DNA of 64,000 bases from Quercus robur (taxonomy: Eukaryota; Streptophyta; Magnoliopsida; Fagales; Fagaceae): positions 5,560,349 through 5,624,348 of the forward strand of contig NC_065537.1 of assembly GCF_932294415.1 (NCBI RefSeq), in the 5' to 3' direction. The notes under the pieces were generated by a model that was given only the letters and a program-made list of their open reading frames with translations, searched no databases and had not been told where the DNA came from. Shown here one piece after another: positions 112 to 60,432 of the stretch (position 1 is its first letter; the number at the start of each line of letters is the position of its first letter). The position numbers were made by a program, and so were the translations under genes.

Positions 112-1941
112 TAGTCGTTAACCCGTGCGATGCACGGAAAAGTTATTTATATAATAAAATCTAAGAAATTTAGAAATAGTAAATTGGGTCAATAATATGC
201 ATATTATAGACATTTTGCTAGTTAGCATTAAAAAAAATATAGATCTGTCATAATTAAATAAAATACAATGGGAAGAAATATTTAACTTCTATATTTTTCT
301 ATAGTTTAGAATTAGAAGTGTTGTCTAACATAGAATGTTATTGGGTTATAAGAGAGATTTTTATAAAATGTTAATACCACATATATATATATATATATAT
401 ATATATGCTTATATTGTCAACATCTCACTGCAGGTGCATAGTTACTGAAACTTACAACATAATTTACATTTCTTAAATTAATAAAGCAAAATTCCCAAAA
501 GTTATATATATATATATATATATATACACACTCAAAACTAATATAAACTACAAAGATATAAACAAATCTTACTTAGTCATAGTAATAACAATATAAAAAA
601 TTCAAAACATAGAACATTATCAAAATTATAACACCTAATTTCATTATCTTTTACATTGAATCCAAACAAATAAGTAATCAGCCAAAAATCATAGCTTTAA
701 TTAAGAAAACAAAAAATCACATGAACCCAAATAAAAATTCTCAATAAAGCAAAAACATATAAGGTAAAGAATTAAGATCAACCTAACAAATAATTAATTG
801 AAATTGATCCAAACAAATAATTAATCAACCAAAAATCATAGCTTTAATTAAGAAAACAAAAAATCACATGAACCCAAATAAAAATTCTCAATAAAGCAAA
901 AACATATAAGGTAAAGAATTAAGATCAACCTACTGAGACGCAAATACCAAAAACCCCAAGACTTAAAGTTTCCACATTTTATAGAATACCCAAATTCTAC
1001 TTCAAAACCAAACAAAACCCTTCAAATTCAAAAAATTCATATATAATATACCAAATAAAAATTTACCACTCCTTGGTTGCAGCTTCGATTTTTCTCCAAA
1101 AAATAGAGATGCTTCATCTGCTATATACAATATAAAATAATTATTAGAAATTTCAACCCAAAAACCAAACCCACAAAAACACTGTCAAAATATAGAGATT
1201 AATCCAAATACTCAAAAGAAAATCAATTCTAAACATAACAAAAGAATAAGATAGAATGAAAATCTCAGGCACATATGAAAGCAAATAAAAAAGAAAGAAC
1301 CTTTTTTTTTTTTTTTTTTTTACATGAGTCTCTCTTCTTCATCTTCTTTTAATCTTAAAGTGAAGTTTTTTTTTTTTGAGAAACATCTTAAAGTGAAGTT
1401 AAGTTTAGGGTCTTGAGATGGTAATTGCTAGGGGTTTAAGGAGAGAAGAGAGAGTCCTACCAGGAGTCTCTCTCTTTTTTCTTAGTCCTAAAGTTTTTTT
1501 TTTTTTTTTTTTTTCTTTGGAAACCTAAAGTGAGTCCTTTAAAAAAAAAAAAAAAAAAAAAAAAATTCTAACGTGTTATGTGAGTTTTTTTTTTTTTTTT
1601 AACCTAATTAAAGTGAGTCATTTTTTTTTTCAATTCTAACGTGAGGTATCTTAAAAAATTATAATTAATTTTTAATCTTCCATTTTATATTATATATAGA
1701 TAACAATAATAATGTGATAAGCTCTGAAAAGGTCAAAAAAATATATCTAATAGAGTTTTACTTAAACTAAACTATTGTAACACTGAAAAGATAATTACAC
1801 GTTGAAAAGAAATAATAAATATATAAAATATAAAACCTAGAATAAAAAGAATCTAGAATAAAAAAGAAAAAGAAAATAGTGGTGACGTGGAAAATTGTGG
1901 GAGTTTCAAAGGCTTCAGTTATATATATATATATATATAGA
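111..1941 (-). mobile_element. Helitron, non-autonomous, copy 1
   Basis: Read on the minus strand the element starts TCTATATATA at 1941 and ends with a hairpin (palindrome cccgtgcgatgcacgg at 122-137) followed by a short spacer and CTAG at 111-114. It sits between A and T, the standard Helitron target. Its first 90 or so bases (a GAAGCCTTTGAA-type phrase, then a phrase around CACGTCACCAC) are shared with the Helitrons at 23857 and 11364. The paralogous block at about 13380 lacks the insertion, which confirms both ends. It is 1831 bp long, AT-rich and has no RepHel-type coding region, so it would need an enzyme supplied in trans. Confidence 0.85.
661..954. repeat. 147-bp tandem duplication inside Helitron 1
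   Basis: Two near-identical units follow each other with a period of 147 bases. The phrase atagctttaattaagaaaac occurs at 691 and again at 838, and the downstream parts through gtaaagaattaagatcaacc match throughout. Copies 2 and 3 of the Helitron family do not show the duplication, so it looks private to this insertion. Confidence 0.8.
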
Positions 1942-1978
1942 TAATAAAGATGGAGTGCGGTACGATGAGCAGTGCGGT

Positions 1979-2740
1979 ACATCTTATTAGTTTTGCTTCA
2001 AAACGATTTAGCAATAAAAGCATAATTAAGGGTTCTAAATATTTGCTAAGGTTACTATAGCATCTTTCAAGAATTATCCATAAATACTTCTGAGCTTCAG
2101 CAAAATCCTCTAAAACAATGGCTGCAAAATTGCATTCTGTCCAAGCAGATAATGATTGAGGACATGATGCACTTCATGCAAGTGGTCTTTACAACTCAGT
2201 GGAGCCTCCACCAAAACCAAATAATCCATGAAGGGAAAGAGGCAAGCCCAATTGAAGCCTTACTAACCTCAAAACATTTGATATGCAGGTACCAAATAGC
2301 ATATGTAACAGGACAAAGGGAAAAACCAAATAGGCCCACCAACACATAAGTGTGCAGGCCTGGCAACTCCATATCAAAGCTGATGGAGTCAGACATAAAT
2401 GGCGTACAAGAAGTGGAATTTCCTTTGAAGCCATAAGCAGGGAGGGAAGTAGAATTTTGGAAGCCTATGACACCACTAAAACCTGGTCCACATTCATAGC
2501 CAAGCAGACTGACATACAAAGTGCAGTCATAAAAGCTACATAGTTGGGGTTCACAAGCACTACCATCATCACTCACAGTGAAGGAAGAGAACAGAGGTGG
2601 AAGCAAAACAAGGAATTCCATTGGTATAGCAGGGCACCATTTGCAGACATCCAACACTTAAGCCAGCAAGGAATAAAACTCATAGTCCAAGCTGTTCCCC
2701 ATACATTCTCTTTGGTTGAACCAACTCTTTTGTAATAGCT
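1979..2740 (+). pseudogene. LINE 3' fragment (RNase H end), copy A
   Basis: This is the C-terminal end of a plant LINE ORF2. Around 2152-2349 the reading resembles the linker after the zf-RVT domain (WSLHQNQIIHEGK, the usual W.-RN..-H.GK pattern). At 2352-2735 there is an RNase H-like stretch (KADG, then SGISFEAISREGSRILEAYD, then THSEGREQRWK). Several in-frame stops interrupt it. The same sequence continues further 5' in copy B (from about 16545), showing that block A begins inside the LINE. It is a dead fragment. Confidence 0.65.
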
Positions 2741-2844
2741 GTATTAGCTAAAGACTTCCTGTGCTTGGTACATTCCCGACCTGGTATCAAAAAAAAAAAA
2801 AAAGGGAATTCAGTATAGAACTAAAGATCCATATATTTTAAAGG

Positions 2845-3170
2845 GCACCTTGTTGGGATCAAACAACTCTTCTAGCAAAGAAGTATTCCTAAGGCATCAT
2901 TCTGAATATACATTGCATAAACACGGTCCTGGCTAATTCATCAGCAAGCTTATTGACCATTGCTAAAGTATCATAACCATAGCCACAACTGGCACCAATC
3001 ACTGTATCCCCTTTCAGAGCAACATGTTTCCAAACCCTGGTAAAAATAGTCAATATCAACTATTTGATGCTTGGATACATTTGCCTGAAATAATTGGCAA
3101 AATAGGAACAAAAATGTCTCAATTTAGAGATGGAATTGGGCAAAAAAATGCATTAATAGGAGCCTGTAGT
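2845..3170 (-). pseudogene. Broken SAM-dependent methyltransferase, copy A
   Basis: Read on the minus strand, a phrase like FTRVWKHVALKGDTVIGASC, then GYGYDTLAMVNKLADELA, recalls the plant rRNA-methylase-like SAM methyltransferases (Arabidopsis At1g16445 type), where motif I reads DATCGNGNDTLAM. Copy B keeps [10 protein letters not shown] but here the motif has decayed to GASCGYGYDT. Downstream residues that should give MDIQ..L.NTSSLLEE are only recoverable in another frame, so the reading frame is lost. Family assignment is from memory of the motif. That it is a relic is seen directly. Confidence 0.55.
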
Positions 3171-4540
3171 AGGTCATTCCAGTATAGCATCAAACAAGGT
3201 CCATAAAACAAAGTCATTTCGTTGACCCACCAAGCAAAAGTAGCATTAAGCTCATAAACTTAAGTACCAAGATGTGTGTGTGTGTGTGTGTTTATGGTTA
3301 ATTATGAAAGAGTTTGGCGATCATCTGTACCAATGTATAAAAAGGCATTTTAAAGATCACCAAAAAATCTAGATTGTGGTATAGTTTCCTAGAAAGGAGC
3401 AGTTAATCATAAATGGTAGAGTGATCTGGTACAATTCATTCTGTTTAAGGATGAGCAGATCACTTGCAATATAGAAAGTGAAGTAAGCATGGGATATGTA
3501 TAGCAAGCATATTATCATTGAGTATGCCATTGAAGTGTCAATAAAAGACATCTTGGGACCTTAAATCAATTGCTAATTGATCGAAAAGATAAGAAAATTG
3601 TAGAGAGTAATCCAACATGCGTGTTCCAATTTGTGCTCATATCAAACAAAGATTTATAAAAACTTTATCCACACATACACATGCAAGCACACAAAACCCC
3701 AAAAACTAAAACTTGCATCAGGTGCTTCAATTGTTCTAAGAACTTATTCTCTGCTGTAGAGCGCATTTTCAAATTTTACTTTGTTTTCTCCTATTGTTCC
3801 CACTATATATAATGCCAAAAGACGCGGTGAAGCGAATTTTTCTGTTGCCTTCTAATCCGAACTAGCAAAGATTAAAATCTTTGAAAAGAATCAAAATAGC
3901 AAACCAAATAAACAATTACATAAAATCAATATTTCAAGGAATCCAGTCGTTAAGTACACATACATACCTACAAAAAACAATTTAAGTTTAGAGAAATTAA
4001 CCTACAAGTTTAAAGCAATTAAGCTTCAGTCCAATGAAAAGCTATAAAATTTACAACAAAACCCAGATTTTTGTAAGTATAGTTTCTCAAAGGAATCCAT
4101 CAGCATAGAAGCAAATATTGAATTTTAGCATATAACCCGAATGGCTAACCGCTACTAGTACTCTGTTTTCTTATGAAAAAGAAAATATTTTTATAAGAAG
4201 TGAAAGAGGGAAAAGGGGTACCAAAAAGAGAAGAATCAAGTGGAATAAGATTTTCAGAAGAAGCGAGAGTCCATTCTCTAGAGTTACAAAGGAATGTGAA
4301 GAAGAACGAAGTCAAAGCGTAACATGTTCGAGAAAATAGAGGGAAAAAAAAAAAAAAAAACAGTAACAATTGAAATAAATAACAAACACAATCCTAAAAT
4401 ATCCCACATTGATAAAATACAAGTAAATTTTTTTATTTATAAATTGTTGCTATAACCTTGTTAATTGCCGAGCTTAGTAACGTTAGCTTGTAATCAAGTT
4501 GGGGCATTAAAGTGGTTGAATGTATGTTGAGACCACCTAG

Positions 4541-12968: not shown

Positions 12969-13862
12969 TGATTTTATTAATGAGGGAGAAGCATTGGAAA
13001 TGTGGAGAATAAGAAAAGGCAAAGGAAATCTAGTGATAAGGTATAACTCTAAACGGGTTGATCAAAGCAGATAATGAAGAAATTAAGGATAATGTGTAGG
13101 GTGCAGTAGTGTAAATAAGTTTGAGTCTTTGAGAGAAAATAAATAAACTTAAAAAAAAAAAAAAAAGGAGAGAAAGCTAACAACAAAAGTAGAGAAATCC
13201 AACAATAACAAAAGAGTGAGTCTATTCTCTATGCAACTAAAGGAAGCATCGCATCAAGATTATAAGATGAAGAAAAAAGAGAAAGGGAGAGTATATAAAA
13301 GCTAATGTGAAGATCAAAGCAGTATTGGCTCCCTTGCCTTGCATACATCTACAACAAAGATTTCTTAATAATAATAATAATAATCAAGATGGAGAGCGGT
13401 ATGATCATGGATGGAACTAGGATTTGAACTTGGGGGGGCCAAAGCATGAACCAAAAAAATTTCAGGTGGTTTATTAAAAAAAAAAAAAAAATCATTGCAG
13501 ACAAAAAATTGCACTTTATTACCTAAATATTTAAGTCAAGAAGGATATAATATGAACCAAAAAAGTTAAAAGTTACAACATGATATTCTAACCTTTTTCG
13601 AAGAAGAGGATTTCAGATCTCCAGATTTTGGGTAATTGGAATTAATATGTTGATTTTATCATGTTGACCAATTCACCAATATGATAATCCCATACTTTTG
13701 AATGCAACTAAAAATCACACTAATGAAGTTTTTCAAAACTTTGTTTGAGGATTTTAAAAAATTGGGATATCAATATTAAGAGTTGGCAATGCTATGTCGT
13801 CAATATTGGCTTCTAAAAGAATTTTGGCATTTTATCTTTTGAAAAAAAAATATAAATGTTGT

Positions 13863-14296
13863 TGTGGGTACCCTGGAGCACCACACACCGCAAGAGATTT
13901 GTCCGCTTTGGGGAGCCAGTCCCTCACGGTTTTGTCCTCGTCCCCGAGTATGGAACCCCAGGATTTTTGCCTTTGAAGTGATCAACACCTAGGCTCACCC
14001 GAATCCCACATCGGTTAGAGAACCCTCCCACTCAAGGTTTATAAGCTTCTGGAGCGACCAAGAGTGTACCACTACTACATGTAGTAGTGGTACACTCTTG
14101 GTCGCTCCAGAAGCTTATAAACCTTGAGTGGGAGGGTTCTCTAACCGATGTGGGATTCGGGTGAGCCTAGGTGTCGATCACTTCAAAGGCAAAAATCCTG
14201 GGGTTCCATACTCGGGGACGAGGACAAAACCGTGAGGGACTGGCTCCCCAAAGCGGACAAATCTCTTGCGGTGTGTGGTGCTCCAGGGTACCCACA
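13863..14296. mobile_element. Palindromic pair of short LTRs, head to head
   Basis: Two 217-bp arms (13863-14079 and 14080-14296) are reverse complements with only about one visible mismatch. Each arm begins TG and ends CA, as LTRs do, and the whole is flanked by the pentamer gttgt (13858-13862 and 14297-14301), the LTR-element duplication length. Each arm contains cccacatcgg followed by tttataagctt, a TATA-bearing layout seen in short plant TRIM-type LTRs. I read it as two inverted LTRs of a TRIM-like element inserted as a unit. A foldback DNA element is the alternative. No coding capacity. Confidence 0.65.
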
Positions 14297-14488
14297 GTTG
14301 TAATTTACTTTCCCATAGTTTATAAATCAATTAAAAAAGTCATATAAATTGTTGTAACCCCGGTAAGGGAATTTTTTTTTCTATGAGATTTTTTTTGTTA
14401 TGAATTATTGAATTATGATATTGGTGAATTGGGGATTTTTTGTTCATTCTATATAGTATATACTATTTAAAATTTTCAAAAAAATTTT

Positions 14489-14809: not shown

Positions 14810-16544
14810 TTCATAACTATATCTTGAGATTAAATGTAACAGAGTAAACATCAAAATAATCACGGCAGTGGATAATTGAGATTCTACAAACTATACATAG
14901 ACTGACTCTTTAGGTTAATCTCACATTGGAAAATGAGTGTGAGTTAAAGAGGTTTAAAACTTGTGCTGTGTATCCAAGAGTTAGGCCCTTTTGGAGATAC
15001 AAGTTTCTTCAAAAATCTTCTCCCCCCTCCCCTTGTGTGTGTGTTACAAATACTTAGTATTCAACTTTTCTTATTTGATTAGTCCCACATCTTCAATTGC
15101 ACCTATACAACAAGATAGATTTGCATTATTGATCAAATTCGTTATTTTTTCAGTTATATCGAATTAAAGTATAATGATTTCAAAGGCAATAAAGAAAATA
15201 CCAATGCAATCCTCAACTTTTTCCTTTCCTTGTGGTGTATAACTAATAATTTCTTCATAAAATTTCGTTAAATTGAATTGAGAAAGTAACAAATTAGGAG
15301 TATTTGCTAATTTTTCAAACATAAAGGAGGAAATTGATTGGTTTCAAAGATAAAGGGGGAAATTGTGAAATACTATAAATATGAATGGGAGGAAATGTTT
15401 TTTCCCTTTTGTTTTTAAAAAAAAAAATAAAAAAAATTGGGTTGCTTTAGACTTTTGAGGTGCCGAGTTTGGTAACGTATGCTTGTAACCTGCTAAGGGA
15501 ATTAAAGTGGTTGAATGTATGGTCTAATTGCCAGGGTGGAATAAGAGGTTAATTGTTGGTTTGTCCACGTTTTGTAGAGATCATTAGGGTGCCACTTGTC
15601 CCTTGGATGATATAAGTCACCAATCTATGGAAATTGTATAATCTCAGCAATGTAAGTCTTTCACACCTAGAATATACTAGTTCCTAGTTGAAACATGTTC
15701 CACCATAATTAACAGAGCCTTGCAAAACAAAAATGAACCGTTTATCATTCAAATAAGATACTTACAGCTCAGAATAAGTTGATCCCAAATGCATGACACC
15801 ATTTAAAAAAAATCACCCTTTTTTTAATCACTCAAACGAGATTAATATTCCAAATAAAACACAATTGAGTAAAAAACAACAACATTGTTTTCAACAAAAG
15901 AATGTTTCAAAATGCACCAATCAATAAAATTAGAACAGAATGGCTTTGACCCACTAAATCTAACCTTACTTAAACCAGATCAAACCCATTAACAAGCACA
16001 AAAATGATGAGACACGCACATAGAAATACAGACACTTATTCTTGTGAAGGTTGATAGTGTGCTCTCTGGTGACAACCTCTTCCTTTGCTGCCCTTGTCTA
16101 CCATTATAAAAACAAAATCCTTTTTTTTTTTTTTTTTTTTTAACTTGTATAATTCTAGGCATTAAAAAATATGAATGAAGACGATTTAAACTCATGGCCA
16201 ATAAATAATTTGAGCAAAAATATTCTGATCTGAAATCAGAAAATTTCTAGCTCTGGCACTCATTCACTATCATGCACTACGGAATAAAGTTAGACAGCAC
16301 TAGGAATTCAGTTTAGAACACATCCCCATCAACCACCCAGTGTGGCACAATCACAAACCACGATTGACCCCATGGCCATGACAGTAACTGATCTCATTGA
16401 TCATTCCACTTGCTTATTGAAACCAGACTTGGTTAGTGTGAGCAAATCCTATTCTAAAACCCCCACACAACCACCACCCCCGCGTCCCTCCCAAGACCAA
16501 TAGTTTACAAGACTCCATAGTGTGGCCTTTCTCTAACTCGGGAG
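14539..16544. other. Block B-specific non-genic DNA
   Basis: There is no supported gene. A TA microsatellite lies at 14768-14806. At about 15460-15610 there is a third, more diverged copy of the sequence found at 4440-4560 and 19510-19620 (words gccgagtttggtaacgt, attaaagtggttgaatgtat, ggtttgtcca), so that motif was present in the region before the block duplication or was copied separately. Confidence 0.55.
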
Positions 16545-32175: not shown

Positions 32176-34891
32176 CTAATCTTTATGATTATGAGGCTTA
32201 AGGTAAATGGGAAAACCATCAACTAGAATAGGTGATAGTTTGCAAGTAATCTTTTCATCCGAAATTGCTTTCTCCCACTTGAATCTTGTCACCACATTAT
32301 GCATAAAAACTAGTATTTCTAATCGAGCATACTCCCTCCCAGGGCAAATTCTAGGTCCTCCTCCAAATGGTACAAATGTGTAAGGTGCTGGACCATTACT
32401 TTCAAATCTTGAAGGATCAAATTTCTCAGGATTGGGAAAGTATTTAGGATTTTTGTGTGTTGAATGTGGAGTCCAATATGCCTACACCAAAAACATGGAA
32501 TCGGGACATTAATAATCATTATTAAAACACAGAGAATTTCTATATAATTAATTTGGCTCATGTACTGGTACGTGTCACATACCTTCCACCCTTTAGGAAT
32601 AGTAAATCCTGCATAAGTGAAGTCCGTTATAGCCTCTCTAAATGTTCCTGAAGAAGGAGGTATTAGCCTCATTGCCTCACGCGCCACATTCCACGAGTAC
32701 TTCATTTTCTTAATGTCATCCCAATTCAACAAATCATTCGGACCCTTAGATCTTGCAATTTCCATTTGCTCTGTTTGACAATATGACCTCATTTTCGTTA
32801 GATTAATCTTTCAAAATCGCATTTATGAGATATGTCACGTGTCAAGAGCTACATACAGTATATTAAATGGATTTTTTTTGAATTTTTCTTAATTACTAGC
32901 TACAGGTGGCCGCAAAAAGATTGGGCCACTCTAGTTGATTGTGCACGCGCTTGTGTATTGATAATGTTACACACTTCCCTTTTTAATAATGCTAACGAGT
33001 GCCTTAAGGGCACTTGTTAAAAATCTATTTTAAAAAATTTTTGACATCACTTTTATAGAAAATGAAAAAAACTATCAAAATATTAATTGTTTTTTTTTTC
33101 TTTTCCCATAAAAACTTTCTATTTAGTTTCCATACTTGCAAAACTCATTATCATCATAAATCAATAATTATCTTATTTACAATAATTTAGAATTCTAAGT
33201 CATTGTAATTTAAAATTATCCACAAAACTTGAGATATAGGGTCCGTTTAGATACAACTTATTTTGCTGAAAACTGAAAACACTGTAACAAAATAATTTTT
33301 AAATGTGTGAATAGTGCTGTGAGACTCATTTTTAATGAAAAAGTTGCTAAAAATGAAGTTTATGGGTCTCATGAATAGTGCACGGGACCCATTGATATGC
33401 ACACGGGAGAAAAGTCCAACAACTGTGGCTAAAAAAAAAAAAAAAAAAAAAGAGGAAAACGTTGAAAAGTGAAAACGCAGACACGCAAACGTGAATCCAA
33501 ACACTAACATAGATCGAATAGTAAATAATATTTGTTCTCTAAATTGAAATTGATGTTAATCTAGGATATACTATATTAAATGGTAGATACGCTTATGATG
33601 AAGATCTTTTAAAGCGAAAGAAGTCTAGCCTAATAGTGTTTTAACGGAAAGAAGACATAGGGTTTGTTTGAATTCAGTTTATTTTATTGAAATTGAAAAC
33701 TGAAAAAACTATAACAAAATAATTTTTAAATGGGTGAATAGTATTGTGGGACTCATTTTTAATGAAAAAGTTGTTAAAAAATGAAATTTGTGGGTCCGTA
33801 AACAGTGCACAGGTGAAGTGAAAAAGTCAACAAATGCATGCTAAAAAAAAAAAAAAAAAAAAGAGAGAAGGAAAACGCCGAAATGCACAGACGCTGAAAC
33901 CAACACATAGGCCCATAATAGGTCGAGAAGAAGTACCTTTTAAGACCTCATTGTAAACATGAGGGAAGTCTGCTAGATACTTCAACACGAATGTGATAGC
34001 AGAACTAGTGGTATCATGTCCAGCAAGAAGTAAGCCCACAATGTTGCTAGAAATTAACAAGTCGTTCATAACTGATCTGCCGTTCTCATCTAATGCAAGA
34101 AGCGTGTGAGTTATAAAGTCACGAGCAACCGTCGCATTATTCTCTGATAGCAGATCTTTCTTCCTCTGTTGGATTACTTCTAAAAGCTCCTGGTGAATAA
34201 CTTTGCCTGCTTTAATGGCGCGGTTAAAGTTTGTGCCTGGGATATTTATAGGCACAGACGTTAAACCATCTACGATAAGGGCAAAGGGATCAGCAAATGT
34301 TGTCACATGGTTGGGATCTGTGATACTCATAAACAACCTACAAGCCAGTGCAAAGGTATACTTCATTGAAAGTGGCAAAACCTTGACTTGTTTGTATGGA
34401 GACCAATCTGTCTCCAAGTGTTTCTTTGCCATGGAGTCCATGATAGGTATGAAATATTGAAGAGTTTCCGGCATGAGAAATTCAACCACAGCCTTCCTTA
34501 TTTTAATAGAATCTTCAGGGGAAATGTTTTCAAGAGATTCTGGAAGGGTAACTTTTAGCAAGAAAGGCGGCAACCAAGAGATGACATGTTTGTTCTCATT
34601 GGAGAACAGAAACTTGTTTCCTGAAGCACCACAAAACACAGCCATGTTCTCACCAAACAGTGAGGTTTTGAAGAGATCCTGCGAGTATTTGCTCATTCTG
34701 TTGTTAATGAACATCTCTGGTGTGCCTCTTTTCCCAGCCATGCCAAATTCCAGTGTTTCCCCAATCACAGGCCATCCCTTTTTACCTGGTGGAAACTTGG
34801 CACGAGTTGATTTTTGTTTATAGATGAGAAAGATGAGTGAGAAGGAAATACAAAGGAGTACAAGGTGCAGCAGGTTTGAAAAGAAATCCAT
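32176..34891 (-). CDS. CYP716: Cytochrome P450, CYP716 family, intact, three exons
   Basis: Exons on the minus strand are 34891-33937, 32770-32583 and 32481-32176, with GT-AG introns at both junctions (1166 and 101 bp). The phases agree, giving 482 residues with no stop. CYP716 enzymes are ER-anchored haem monooxygenases, many of which oxidise triterpenes such as beta-amyrin (family knowledge; the substrate here is unknown). Seen: an N-terminal membrane segment (residues 5-24), proline hinge [12 protein letters not shown] (34-45), I-helix AGHDTT (290-295), ExxR as EAMR (350-353), DPSRFE, and the haem loop [10 protein letters not shown] with Cys427. Length is normal for the family. The start chosen is ATG at 34891, since the codon further 5' in frame is GTG. 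Two MITEs lie in intron 1. Broken relatives lie at 50567-51160 and 59021-60015. Confidence 0.9.
33239..33508 (+). mobile_element. Tourist-like MITE in P450 intron 1, copy 1
   Basis: Begins gggtccgtttagatacaact and ends gtgaatccaaacac, with the diagnostic interior (gtgaatagtgctgtgagact, a poly-A run, aaaacgcagacacgcaaacg). About 270 bp and related to the copies at 33660 and 35311. Terminal gtttgg-type inverted repeats fit PIF/Harbinger MITEs. Confidence 0.75.
33660..33908 (+). mobile_element. Tourist-like MITE in P450 intron 1, copy 2
   Basis: A diverged relative of copy 1 (gggtttgtttgaattcagtt start, gtgaatagtattgtgggact interior, poly-A then aaaacgccgaaatgcacaga near the end). It lies only about 30 bp from the end of exon 1, inside the intron. 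Confidence 0.7.
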
Positions 34892-35310
34892 ACCAACTTC
34901 CACACCCTCTTACCTGCAAAAATGAGCAAGACCTAATTCTCCAAGTTCCAATTGAGGTTAGCTAGAGCTTGAACAATATCAAGTAAACCTATCACAATAA
35001 GTATAAAACTTAAAATTTTATCTAGTTACAAAGTAGGAATAGCCTCAAATAATATTTTCCACTTCCAAAATTTTCCAACCAATTCATTCACAAGGCGTAG
35101 GCTCCAATTTATAAAATTAATCCATTCAATATCATCTCCTTAATACTAAAATCTTAACAATTTATGAGTAGCTTCTATAAGATTTACACAACATCGTACA
35201 GAGACCCATGAAACCAAAATCACAATATTCTCCAACACAAATCATTTAAATATTTTACTAGCTCCAAATAACTCAATAAAAATTATATTCACCATCTATT
35301 TCACATTAAG
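34892..35310. other. 5' flank of the P450 gene
   Basis: The upstream region of the P450 has no clear TATA box or known operator that I can fix. The first 40 bp (ttgctcat.., then gtggaagttggtatgg on the gene's strand) resemble the corresponding stretch upstream of the broken copy at 59021, marking a shared 5' leader. Confidence 0.45.
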
Positions 35311-58980: not shown

Positions 58981-59020
58981 TTTTCTCTTCTTGCTCATTC
59001 GTATTATTGTGGAAGGTGAT

Positions 59021-60015
59021 ATGGATTTCTTCCCAAACCTGTTTCACCATGTATTCCTTTGTATTTCGTTCTCACTCATCTTCCTCATATTTAAATAAAA
59101 ATCAACTCGTGCCAAGTTGCCACCTGGTAAAACAGGATGGCCTGTCATTGGGGAAACATTGGAATTTGCCATGGCTGGAACCCCAGAGACGTTCATTAAG
59201 GAAAGAATGAGCAAATACTCGCGATATCTCTTCAAAACCTCAATGTTTGGAGAGAACATGGCTGTGTTTTGTGGAGCTTCCGGAAACAAGTTTCTGTTCA
59301 CCAACGAGAAAAAATATGTCATCTCTTGGTGGCCACGTTCCGTGGAAAAAGTTATGTTTTCTCCTGAAACTCTTGAAAACTTTGTCCCAGAAGATTATAT
59401 TACAATACGGAGAGCCATAGTTGAATTTCTCAAGCTAGAAGCTCTTCAACATTTCATACCTATCATGGACTCCATGGCAAAGGAACACTTGGAGACAAAT
59501 TGGTCTCCTTACGGACAAGTCAAGGTTTAGCCGCTTTCAATGAAGTATACCTTTGCATTCGGTTGTAGGTTGTTTATGAGTATCACAGATCGCAACTATG
59601 TGGCAATATTGGCTGATCCCTTTGCGCAGATCAAAGATGCAGGTTTAATGTCTCTGCCTATAAATATCCCTGGCACATCCTTTAACCGTGCATTTAAAGC
59701 AGGCAAAGTTATTCACCAGAAGCTTTTAGAAGTTATCCAACAGAGGAAGAAGGAGAACAGAGAATAATGTGACAGTTGCTCTTGACTTTATAACTCACGC
59801 GCTTCTTGAATTAGAAGAGAACAGCAGATCAGTTATGAACGACATTTTGATTGCTAGCAACATTATGGGCTTACTTTTTGCTGGCCATGATACCGCTAGT
59901 TCTGCTATTACATTCGTGTTGAAGTATCTAGCAGAGTTCCCTAATGTTTACAATGAAGTCTTAAAAGAAATTTCTTCTCAACAGTACTATAAGCATATGT
60001 CTTCTTTCAATTAAG
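59021..60015 (+). pseudogene. CYP716: Broken CYP716 copy, exon 1 only
   Basis: Starting at ATG 59021 this parallels exon 1 of the intact gene: a membrane segment ([20 protein letters not shown]), [38 protein letters not shown], and I-helix LLFAGHDTASSA (Thr changed to Ala). It is interrupted by a stop at codon 26 (FK, stop, KS), another after GQVKV near 59528, and a frameshift in QRKKENRE near 59755. At the position of the exon 1 donor the AAAAG/GT is lost. Exons 2 and 3 do not follow. It is on the opposite strand from the other broken copy at 50567-51160, which has exons 2 and 3. Confidence 0.9.
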
Positions 60016-60235: not shown

Positions 60236-60238
<3 letters not shown>

Positions 60239-60432
60239 AGAGGAACAAATCTATCCCCAATCAAGTATTGTCCTCTTTAGGATGGGTAGGATCGACCCTT
60301 ATTCCCACCCGCACGGATTTGCTCAATCCCACATCGGGGAGAGACGCCTCCCACCCTTGCCTTATAAGCACTTGCCCTAAGGAATGGTGTACTATAGTGT
60401 GTGTGATCATGGGAGGAATGAATCTATCCCCA
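60236..60432 (+). mobile_element. Short TRIM-like or LTR-like remnant
   Basis: Contains aatcccacatcggggaga then ccttataagcacttgccc, the same CCCACATCGG plus TATAAG layout as the palindromic LTR arms at 13863-14296, and is bordered by a diverged direct repeat (aaatctatcccca, about 60246 and 60419). Ends are not fixed. Confidence 0.4.

Follow-up and report, generated by a model that had tools for sequence, protein, structure and literature searches.

A family of small palindromic elements with LTR-like arms and predicted U6-type promoters in Quercus robur

The palindrome and its surroundings

The window analysed here is a stretch of 64,000 nucleotides of Quercus robur (NC_065537.1, positions 5,560,349 to 5,624,348), located on a contig of 86.5 Mb. 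It contains copia gag/RT, MULE transposase and P450 sequences as well as weaker gypsy matches. The cytochrome P450 frame (Pfam) lies at 33827-34909; this segment and 59008-60003 form an inverted stretch which is 85% alike over 1 kb, and the frame at 59099-59530 within the latter has no match in Pfam. At 13863-14296 lies a 434-bp palindrome, described in a sequence-only reading as two LTR-like arms of 217 bp fused head to head. These coordinates are exact, and the arms abut without a spacer. The features of the palindrome, and of a distant relative in the same window, are the following:

13858..13862, no strand: left target-site duplication GTTGT (window sequence)
13863..14079, plus strand: left arm, an LTR-like unit with outer end TGTGGGTAC and inner end CTACTACA (self-comparison, family comparison)
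14003..14013, plus strand: snRNA-type upstream sequence element (USE) ATCCCACATCG of the left arm (motif scan, family conservation)
14040..14045, plus strand: TATA box TATAAG of the left arm, 26 bp past the USE (motif scan, family conservation)
14068..14070, plus strand: predicted transcription start of the left arm, about 30 bp past the TATA box and firing across the centre (from U6-type spacing)
14072..14087, no strand: centre CTACTACA/TGTAGTAG (window sequence)
14080..14296, minus strand: right arm, the reverse complement of the left arm with one mismatch (self-comparison)
14114..14119, minus strand: TATA box of the right arm (mirror of 14040-14045)
14146..14156, minus strand: USE of the right arm (minus-strand motif match)
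14297..14301, no strand: right target-site duplication GTTGT (window sequence)
60236..60410, plus strand: distant single-arm relative, approximate outer bounds (USE and TATA with a 26-bp gap)

As had been claimed, the arm starts with TG and ends with CA, and GTTGT on both sides bears out that the pair was inserted as a unit, with 5 bp duplicated. The expected difference of about one site between the arms is exactly one mismatch in 217 positions, involving A at 13984 and C at 14175 (G when read on the opposite strand). This is a CpG-type transition, and CA in the left arm against CG in the right arm fits a decayed methylated C. With a plant substitution rate of 1.3e-8 per site and year, the difference of 1/217 (0.46%) gives an age near 0.2 million years, with very broad uncertainty, a value which is untrustworthy if the arms undergo conversion.

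The palindrome is far above chance level. Its longest mismatch-free arm at the centre measures 95 bp, and the best in the rest of the window 19 bp. Folded as RNA, the whole palindrome reaches -466 kcal/mol (shuffle mean -146), and the fold of a single arm is unremarkable (z -0.08). The G+C content is 53% in the element and 28-29% in its flanks.

Several trivial origins were considered. An assembly fold-over artefact is ruled out by the unique flanks, the 5-bp duplication and the many copies at other sites, and two unrelated nested LTR insertions by a centre without duplication. A miRNA gene was likewise rejected: the low-threshold Rfam matches to mir models are hairpin matches under the gathering score, and at gathering thresholds no Rfam family is found in the window.

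Family copies and their layouts

The palindrome belongs to a large family of very small mobile elements. Searching the genome with the window arm gave 74 matches (best 40 of 334 candidates scored), and two further queries, which extended to more divergent groups, gave 71 (best 40 of 261) and 67 (best 40 of 113). Since the best 40 candidates were scored per query, copy numbers are lower bounds and the sample is biased towards well-kept copies. Besides the window, 87 loci were read: 68 from the first two queries and 19 places of group C. They sit on 12 contigs totalling about 784 Mb of the 785.7-Mb assembly, which makes a chromosome number of n = 12 likely.

Plain pairs of arm and inverted arm account for 35 of the 68 loci, single arms for 19 and other patterns for 14. 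The head-to-head pair is therefore the commonest layout in the sample, and the proposal that it is an unusual product finds no support. The suggested search for further palindromic pairs was productive, with dozens of copies at different sites and with different duplications. The inserted units are bounded by outer ends of the TGTGRGKACA type, and at least five outer modules occur in the family. The terminal arms are inverted and lack coding capacity (short copies; reading frames were examined in L013). One arm of a pair is often truncated with the perfect duplication still present; the second arm of L074 is reduced to about 12 bp and its duplication is still perfect.

The centres vary. The arrangement CTACTACA-CATG-TGTAGTAG, in some cases with a slightly worn arm end, occurs in 13 of 34 family centres compared, and the central CATG (4 bp) is missing from the window copy. 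The commonest centre is CTACTACACA/TGTGTAGTAG, and many pairs join at CACA/TGTG. A 9-bp inverted repeat within the arm forms an alternative hairpin centre in L047, L058, L068 and L065/L066/L073, copies which carry four different outer modules. In L009, arm positions 167-219 are duplicated and mirrored at 100% in both arms; its flanking 5-mers are unmatched. Pattern scans for the arm in collections of viral contigs and of genome contigs found none, and a search of PMC full text for the arm letters returned unrelated papers only.

Target-site duplications and single arms

Counting the window copy, 57 two-ended elements were compared, and 41 of them carry a perfect 5-bp duplication (5/5); five more match at 4/5. 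When flanks of different copies were cross-paired as a control, 5/5 matches arose in 0.78%. Together with the TG...CA termini, these duplications are what is expected of TRIM or other LTR elements. A few of the 5/5 duplications are of low complexity (e.g. TATAT). One-ended, truncated and complex loci were left out of the count (among others L046, L069, L070, L079-L082, L086, L087, L089, L094, L096 and L097), and L056, L061, L065, L066 and L073 were counted despite a doubtful second end, which lowers the duplication rate. The 16 of 57 elements without a perfect duplication include the complex loci L056, L065, L066, L073 and L084, and also the perfectly palindromic L009 and L020.

Two of the copies that fail the duplication count account for one another: L029 is flanked by ACTGT and CTTAT, and L028, 58 kb away, by ACAGT and ATAAG. 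These swapped and inverted 5-mers suggest the footprint of a 58-kb inversion between the two copies, with ACTGT and ATAAG as the duplications. The copies lie at C35:37.05 and 36.99 Mb, and the footprint is read from the flanking 5-mers. If so, the family can reshape the genome.

A duplication of the solo-LTR type was found in none of the 11 single arms that are complete to the inner end (L003, L019, L026, L030, L035, L045, L046 and L070; in group C L081, L089 and L094, by eye). According to the sequence-only reading, a lack of single-arm LTRs would indicate a foldback family. This is largely what we observe, within the limited power of 11 arms, and it points to a foldback family. Among 22 one-ended loci, an exact search for a second end with duplication proved L074 to be two-ended. 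A possible second end in L069 consists of CACA followed by TAATT (against GAATT, 4/5), and in L057 a CA with a 5-mer about 10 bp beyond the truncated arm is at chance level; the other 19 yielded no second end with duplication. The inner end of the arm is kept in only 8 of the 22. For three of the complete single arms, read over 8 kb inward as L098-L100, no partner arm was found.

The two identities originally offered, a pair of LTRs or a foldback imitating an LTR, each hold in part. Ends, duplications and direct forms are LTR-like; solo arms without duplication speak for a foldback. The arms are LTR-like, yet a unit apparently requires a pair of outer ends in inverted orientation, in the manner of foldbacks.

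Some single arms have noteworthy neighbours. The one-armed copy at L003:1392-1715, 97% like the window arm, ends at a T run beside a tRNA-Arg(CCT) gene (ARAGORN). The group-C arms of L089, L096 and L097 lie at separate sites, and all three have TCAGTTGGCGCC(A/G)TC as their left flank, as though they travelled within a bigger repeat, close to a motif resembling a primer site. Finally, the one-armed copy at L099:11-211 lies about 170 bp upstream of a reading frame at 382-3486 which, by eye, looks like an LRR receptor kinase.

Likeness of the two arms

The near-identity of the arms noted at the window copy extends to most full palindromes. Of the 35 two-armed copies, 25 have stems with 98% identity or more, and the other 10 have stems with 94-98% (best-matching stem only; L011 has no such stem). 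Identity is 100% over the full arm in L009, L010, L015, L020, L029 and L032. The outer 20 nucleotides of the two ends differ by at most one mismatch in 37 of 40 copies and in 132 of 780 pairs of different copies; this comparison covers 40 of the 46 two-ended copies, doubtful ends being left out. Such likeness suggests that at some step one arm is made as a copy of the other.

Among 23 palindromes compared (loops included), 13 have arms that are closer to each other than to any foreign arm, and three are ties. In seven of the 23 (L024, L039, L047, L049, L054, L058 and L063), an arm of another copy is nearer; the nearest foreign arm is 0-9.5% away. Mismatches between left and right arms recur in more than one copy in 12 of 99 distinct cases, and eight of these 12 involve L024 or L054. 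L054, L011, L023 and L088 pair arms of different groups: the arms of L054 are 17% apart, and in L088 the 5′ and 3′ arms come from different groups.

The predicted promoter

Each arm of the window copy harbors one ATCCCACATCG, a perfect plant snRNA upstream sequence element, pointing to the centre. Promoter conservation was measured over 44 near-complete arms chosen from the loci read and the window. It reaches 0.975 at the USE and 0.96 in the TATA region against a mean of 0.795, and the best-kept segments also include TTTGTCCGCTTTGGGG and the inner end. The gap between USE and TATA is 26 bp in 41 of the 44 arms; the exceptions are L075 (25 bp), L063 (without TATAA) and L070 (no match to the USE pattern). 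The distance from the USE to the outer end varies between 118 and 158 bp (the 187 bp of L087R include flank), so spacing elsewhere in the arm varies and the gap stays constant.

In the accessible part of PMC9845283, type 3 Pol III promoters of the U6 kind are defined by the USE RTCCCACATCG and a TATA box at the shorter spacing. Both are found in the family arms, whose spacing resembles that of a U6 promoter; a Pol III promoter is thus predicted. Arabidopsis U6-26 likewise has a gap of 26 bp.

The single arm at 60236-60410 is 80% identical to the window arm over 45 bp in its core, and no inverted partner of it is seen in the window. Two more USE-like stretches, TCTCACATTGG and AGTCCCACATCTTC, were noticed by eye at 14890-15110 and belong perhaps to another repeat with an snRNA-type promoter.

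Long double-stranded RNA made from the element's own promoters was considered and rejected. The predicted starts are located about 12-13 nucleotides from the centre, so the element's own transcripts would contain just a short stem, and the full hairpin would require read-through from outside.

Long forms and their spacers

Nine two-ended long copies have the order arm, spacer, arm, inverted arm, each with a perfect 5-bp duplication: L012 (ACAAG), L013 (GTTTT), L014 (GGTAT), L023 (ATATA) and L027 (ATAAT), and in group C L076 (GATTA), L077 (CTATT), L078 (GCTTC) and L088, read in extended form (ACTCT). The sequence-only reading had suggested looking for the same arms around a TRIM-like interior: arm-interior-arm is present in these nine copies, all of which end in a further inverted arm. 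Direct arm pieces also occur in L046, L056, L060, L065/L066/L073, L069, L079, L080, L084 and L087. L044 has a partial direct arm and a 5/5 duplication, and L046 a tandem duplication of flank plus arm. Beyond the nine long forms, loci with direct pieces mostly lack a perfect duplication or a readable second end. Subfamily t2 comprises at least nine two-armed copies, and its longer forms in the sample are only L013 and partly L044.

The group-C spacer measures 130-164 bp (L076, L077, L078, L079 and L088) and resembles an inverted arm without the promoter. Its first bases are TGTGTAGTAGTGGTA, or a variant of it, complementary to the last 15 nucleotides of the arm; in L076, L077, L078 and L088 this start is complementary or near-complementary. 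Its end, GCGCCTTTT, precedes TGTGGG and creates a T5 run at the junction of spacer and arm. Inspection of the group-C spacers by eye (start TGTGTAGTAGTGG, end GCGCCTTTT) revealed neither a primer site of the tRNA type nor a purine tract. The group-C start is missing in L012-L014, L023 and L027, whose spacers are either very short or of foreign sequence. The first 53 nucleotides or so of the group-C spacer gave 38 matches at about 30 places (32 of 32 candidates scored). Inverted pairs of its first 50 or so nucleotides, i.e. promoterless palindromes, occur at C2:27170180, C5:7553881, C40:1486460 and C4:23807437.

The predicted L077 RNA, comprising the arm end and the spacer, would form a 5′ hairpin, followed by a closing stem ahead of the U run; its fold is only modestly better than that of shuffled sequences (z -1.8; 9 of 200 shuffles folded equally well). 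At the centre of L078 the sequence stutters back and forth. In L013 (1481-2964) the spacer is about 1 kb long and the whole copy is flanked by GTTTT. By eye, this spacer looks like an antisense fragment of a pararetrovirus protease/RT; two pieces of it, searched apart in Pfam, gave no match.

How the inverted arm may arise

We consider, with middling confidence, that these elements constitute a small non-coding, LTR-like foldback family whose inverted arm is made by hairpin-primed copying. We infer the copying, the transcription and the enzymes from element structure. The transcript would start about 13 nucleotides before the end of the arm, with a self-complementary 5′ end. The 3′ end of the DNA copy could then snap back and prime synthesis of the opposite arm, which would restore the promoter and supply the second outer end. 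A borrowed enzyme of the integrase type would insert the product with a 5-bp stagger; the 5-bp duplication and the TG/CA ends point to an integrase of the LTR type provided in trans. Simple palindromes, the window copy among them, might arise directly by snap-back copying, or from a long form by recombination of its direct arms in the manner of solo LTRs.

Hairpin priming is attractive because the predicted start, about 30 bp past the TATA box, lies about 13 nucleotides before the arm end, because the alternative centre sits on the 9-bp inverted repeat in copies with four outer modules, and because of the central stutter in L078. However, any inverted repeat within an arm recurs in direct orientation in the other half of the palindrome, so slippage deletions would explain the truncated and alternative-centre forms equally well. 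The chimeric L054, L011, L023 and L088 would need an extra template switch or recombination. Against hairpin-primed copying we also count the 16 of 57 elements without a perfect duplication, the seven of 23 palindromes with a nearer foreign arm and the 12 of 99 left/right mismatches that recur between copies. An ordinary Pol III-driven LTR cycle would fail, since the T5 run between spacer and arm would stop Pol III.

A bolder version, which we think rather unlikely, is that of a palindromic retroelement with an external U6-type Pol III promoter in which the palindrome is the replication strategy itself. Retroelements normally lose external promoters. Here, the promoter would lie upstream of the transcript and be lost in each round of reverse transcription; the opposite arm would hold a copy, and hairpin self-priming of the DNA copy would rebuild the missing half. 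If true, restoring the promoter by arm copying would be a new solution to this loss, and one open to direct testing. The family is also a source of numerous long palindromes that are nearly perfect and carry predicted promoters.

Other explanations have to be weighed against hairpin-primed copying. The elements may be DNA transposons of the foldback or MITE type, with long terminal inverted repeats, moved by a transposase that leaves 5-bp duplications; the arms would be kept alike by gene conversion through hairpins, and the long forms would be nested or partly duplicated foldbacks. We regard this as a tentative possibility. It accommodates the inverted outer ends of the perfectly duplicated copies, a second arm shrunk to about 12 bp beside a perfect duplication (L074) and the complete single arms without duplications (0/11), and the common asymmetric shape of L047, L058 and L068, with different duplications, suggests foldbacks moving as such. 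It sits less well with 5-bp duplications and TG/CA ends, which fit LTR integrases. This combination of termini and duplication length is not known from any plant DNA-transposon superfamily. Moreover, a cut-and-paste element has no evident need for a conserved USE and TATA at a 26-bp gap, and ten stems differ by 2-6%, which means that gene conversion would not be continuous. Should the DNA-transposon reading win, there would have to be a transposase making 5-bp duplications.

The palindrome may instead never move, every copy being what is left of an arm-interior-arm-inverted arm element once its direct arms have recombined. This idea fits the nine perfectly duplicated long forms, which come from several subfamilies, and the excess of two-armed over long forms in the sample, which solo LTRs often show as well. 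We nevertheless hold it to be improbable: one and the same hairpin-centred asymmetric shape recurs beside different duplications at several sites, which suggests that foldbacks without a spacer do move, and for the nine or more two-armed copies of t2 the sample contains no longer forms other than L013 and, partially, L044. Still more remote is a one-off event in which an aberrant cDNA reaction fused two TRIM LTRs head to head and the product inserted a single time. The ends and the duplication do look like those of an LTR element, and PMC4717578 reports a maize case of two inverted TRIMs with a 5-bp duplication; yet a singular event is already refuted by dozens of palindromic family copies at different sites with different duplications.

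Relation to known systems

In LTR retrotransposons of the self-primed Tf1 type, the RNA's own 5′ end pairs just downstream of the LTR and serves as primer. The primer would be self-supplied in the Quercus family as well, which differs in having no coding region and in that priming is deduced only from complementarity. The foldback element Galileo has long inverted arms, as does the Quercus family. In the accessible part of PMC4168063, recombination between Galileo copies makes inversions, comparable to L028/L029. The Quercus family differs in its LTR-type ends, its 5-bp duplication and its conserved promoter.

Cuscuta MIRNA loci have U6-like USE promoters near RNA-hairpin loci and features of Pol III transcription (PMC10226582). 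The proximity of a USE to an RNA-hairpin locus is shared, but the Quercus unit is a repeated mobile element with a predicted start inside the hairpin, and its predicted transcript would hold only a stem of about 12-13 bp at the 5′ end. Cassandra TRIMs carry 5S rRNA in their LTR according to the portions consulted of PMC7215508 and PMC4717578. They share with the Quercus family tandem arrays and an LTR with a Pol III-type promoter, a predicted one in Quercus; as far as these portions go, the Quercus family is set apart by a predicted external U6-type promoter (USE and TATA) in place of 5S and by head-to-head pairs.

The closest parallels are TRIMs such as Zma-SMART, which occur in tandem and inverted arrangements. 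In the sections consulted of Gao et al. 2016 (PMC4717578), they are small and non-coding, with TG/CA ends, 5-bp duplications, the arm-interior-arm order and arrays, and one maize copy consists of two inverted TRIMs with a 5-bp duplication. Inverted LTR-type pairs are thus not new as such. In contrast to TRIMs, inverted pairs are the most frequent form in the Quercus sample, complete single arms have no duplication, the arms carry a predicted U6-type promoter, and the spacers inspected by eye showed neither a tRNA primer site nor a purine tract. We do not file the family as a TRIM because duplicated solo arms were looked for and none was seen. Among the open-access papers listed in topic searches, with subscription papers mostly outside their reach, none describes such a family by its title or abstract opening. 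What seems new here is the inverted pair as the standard form, with arms that carry predicted U6-type promoters, whereas the inverted LTR-type pair itself was already known.
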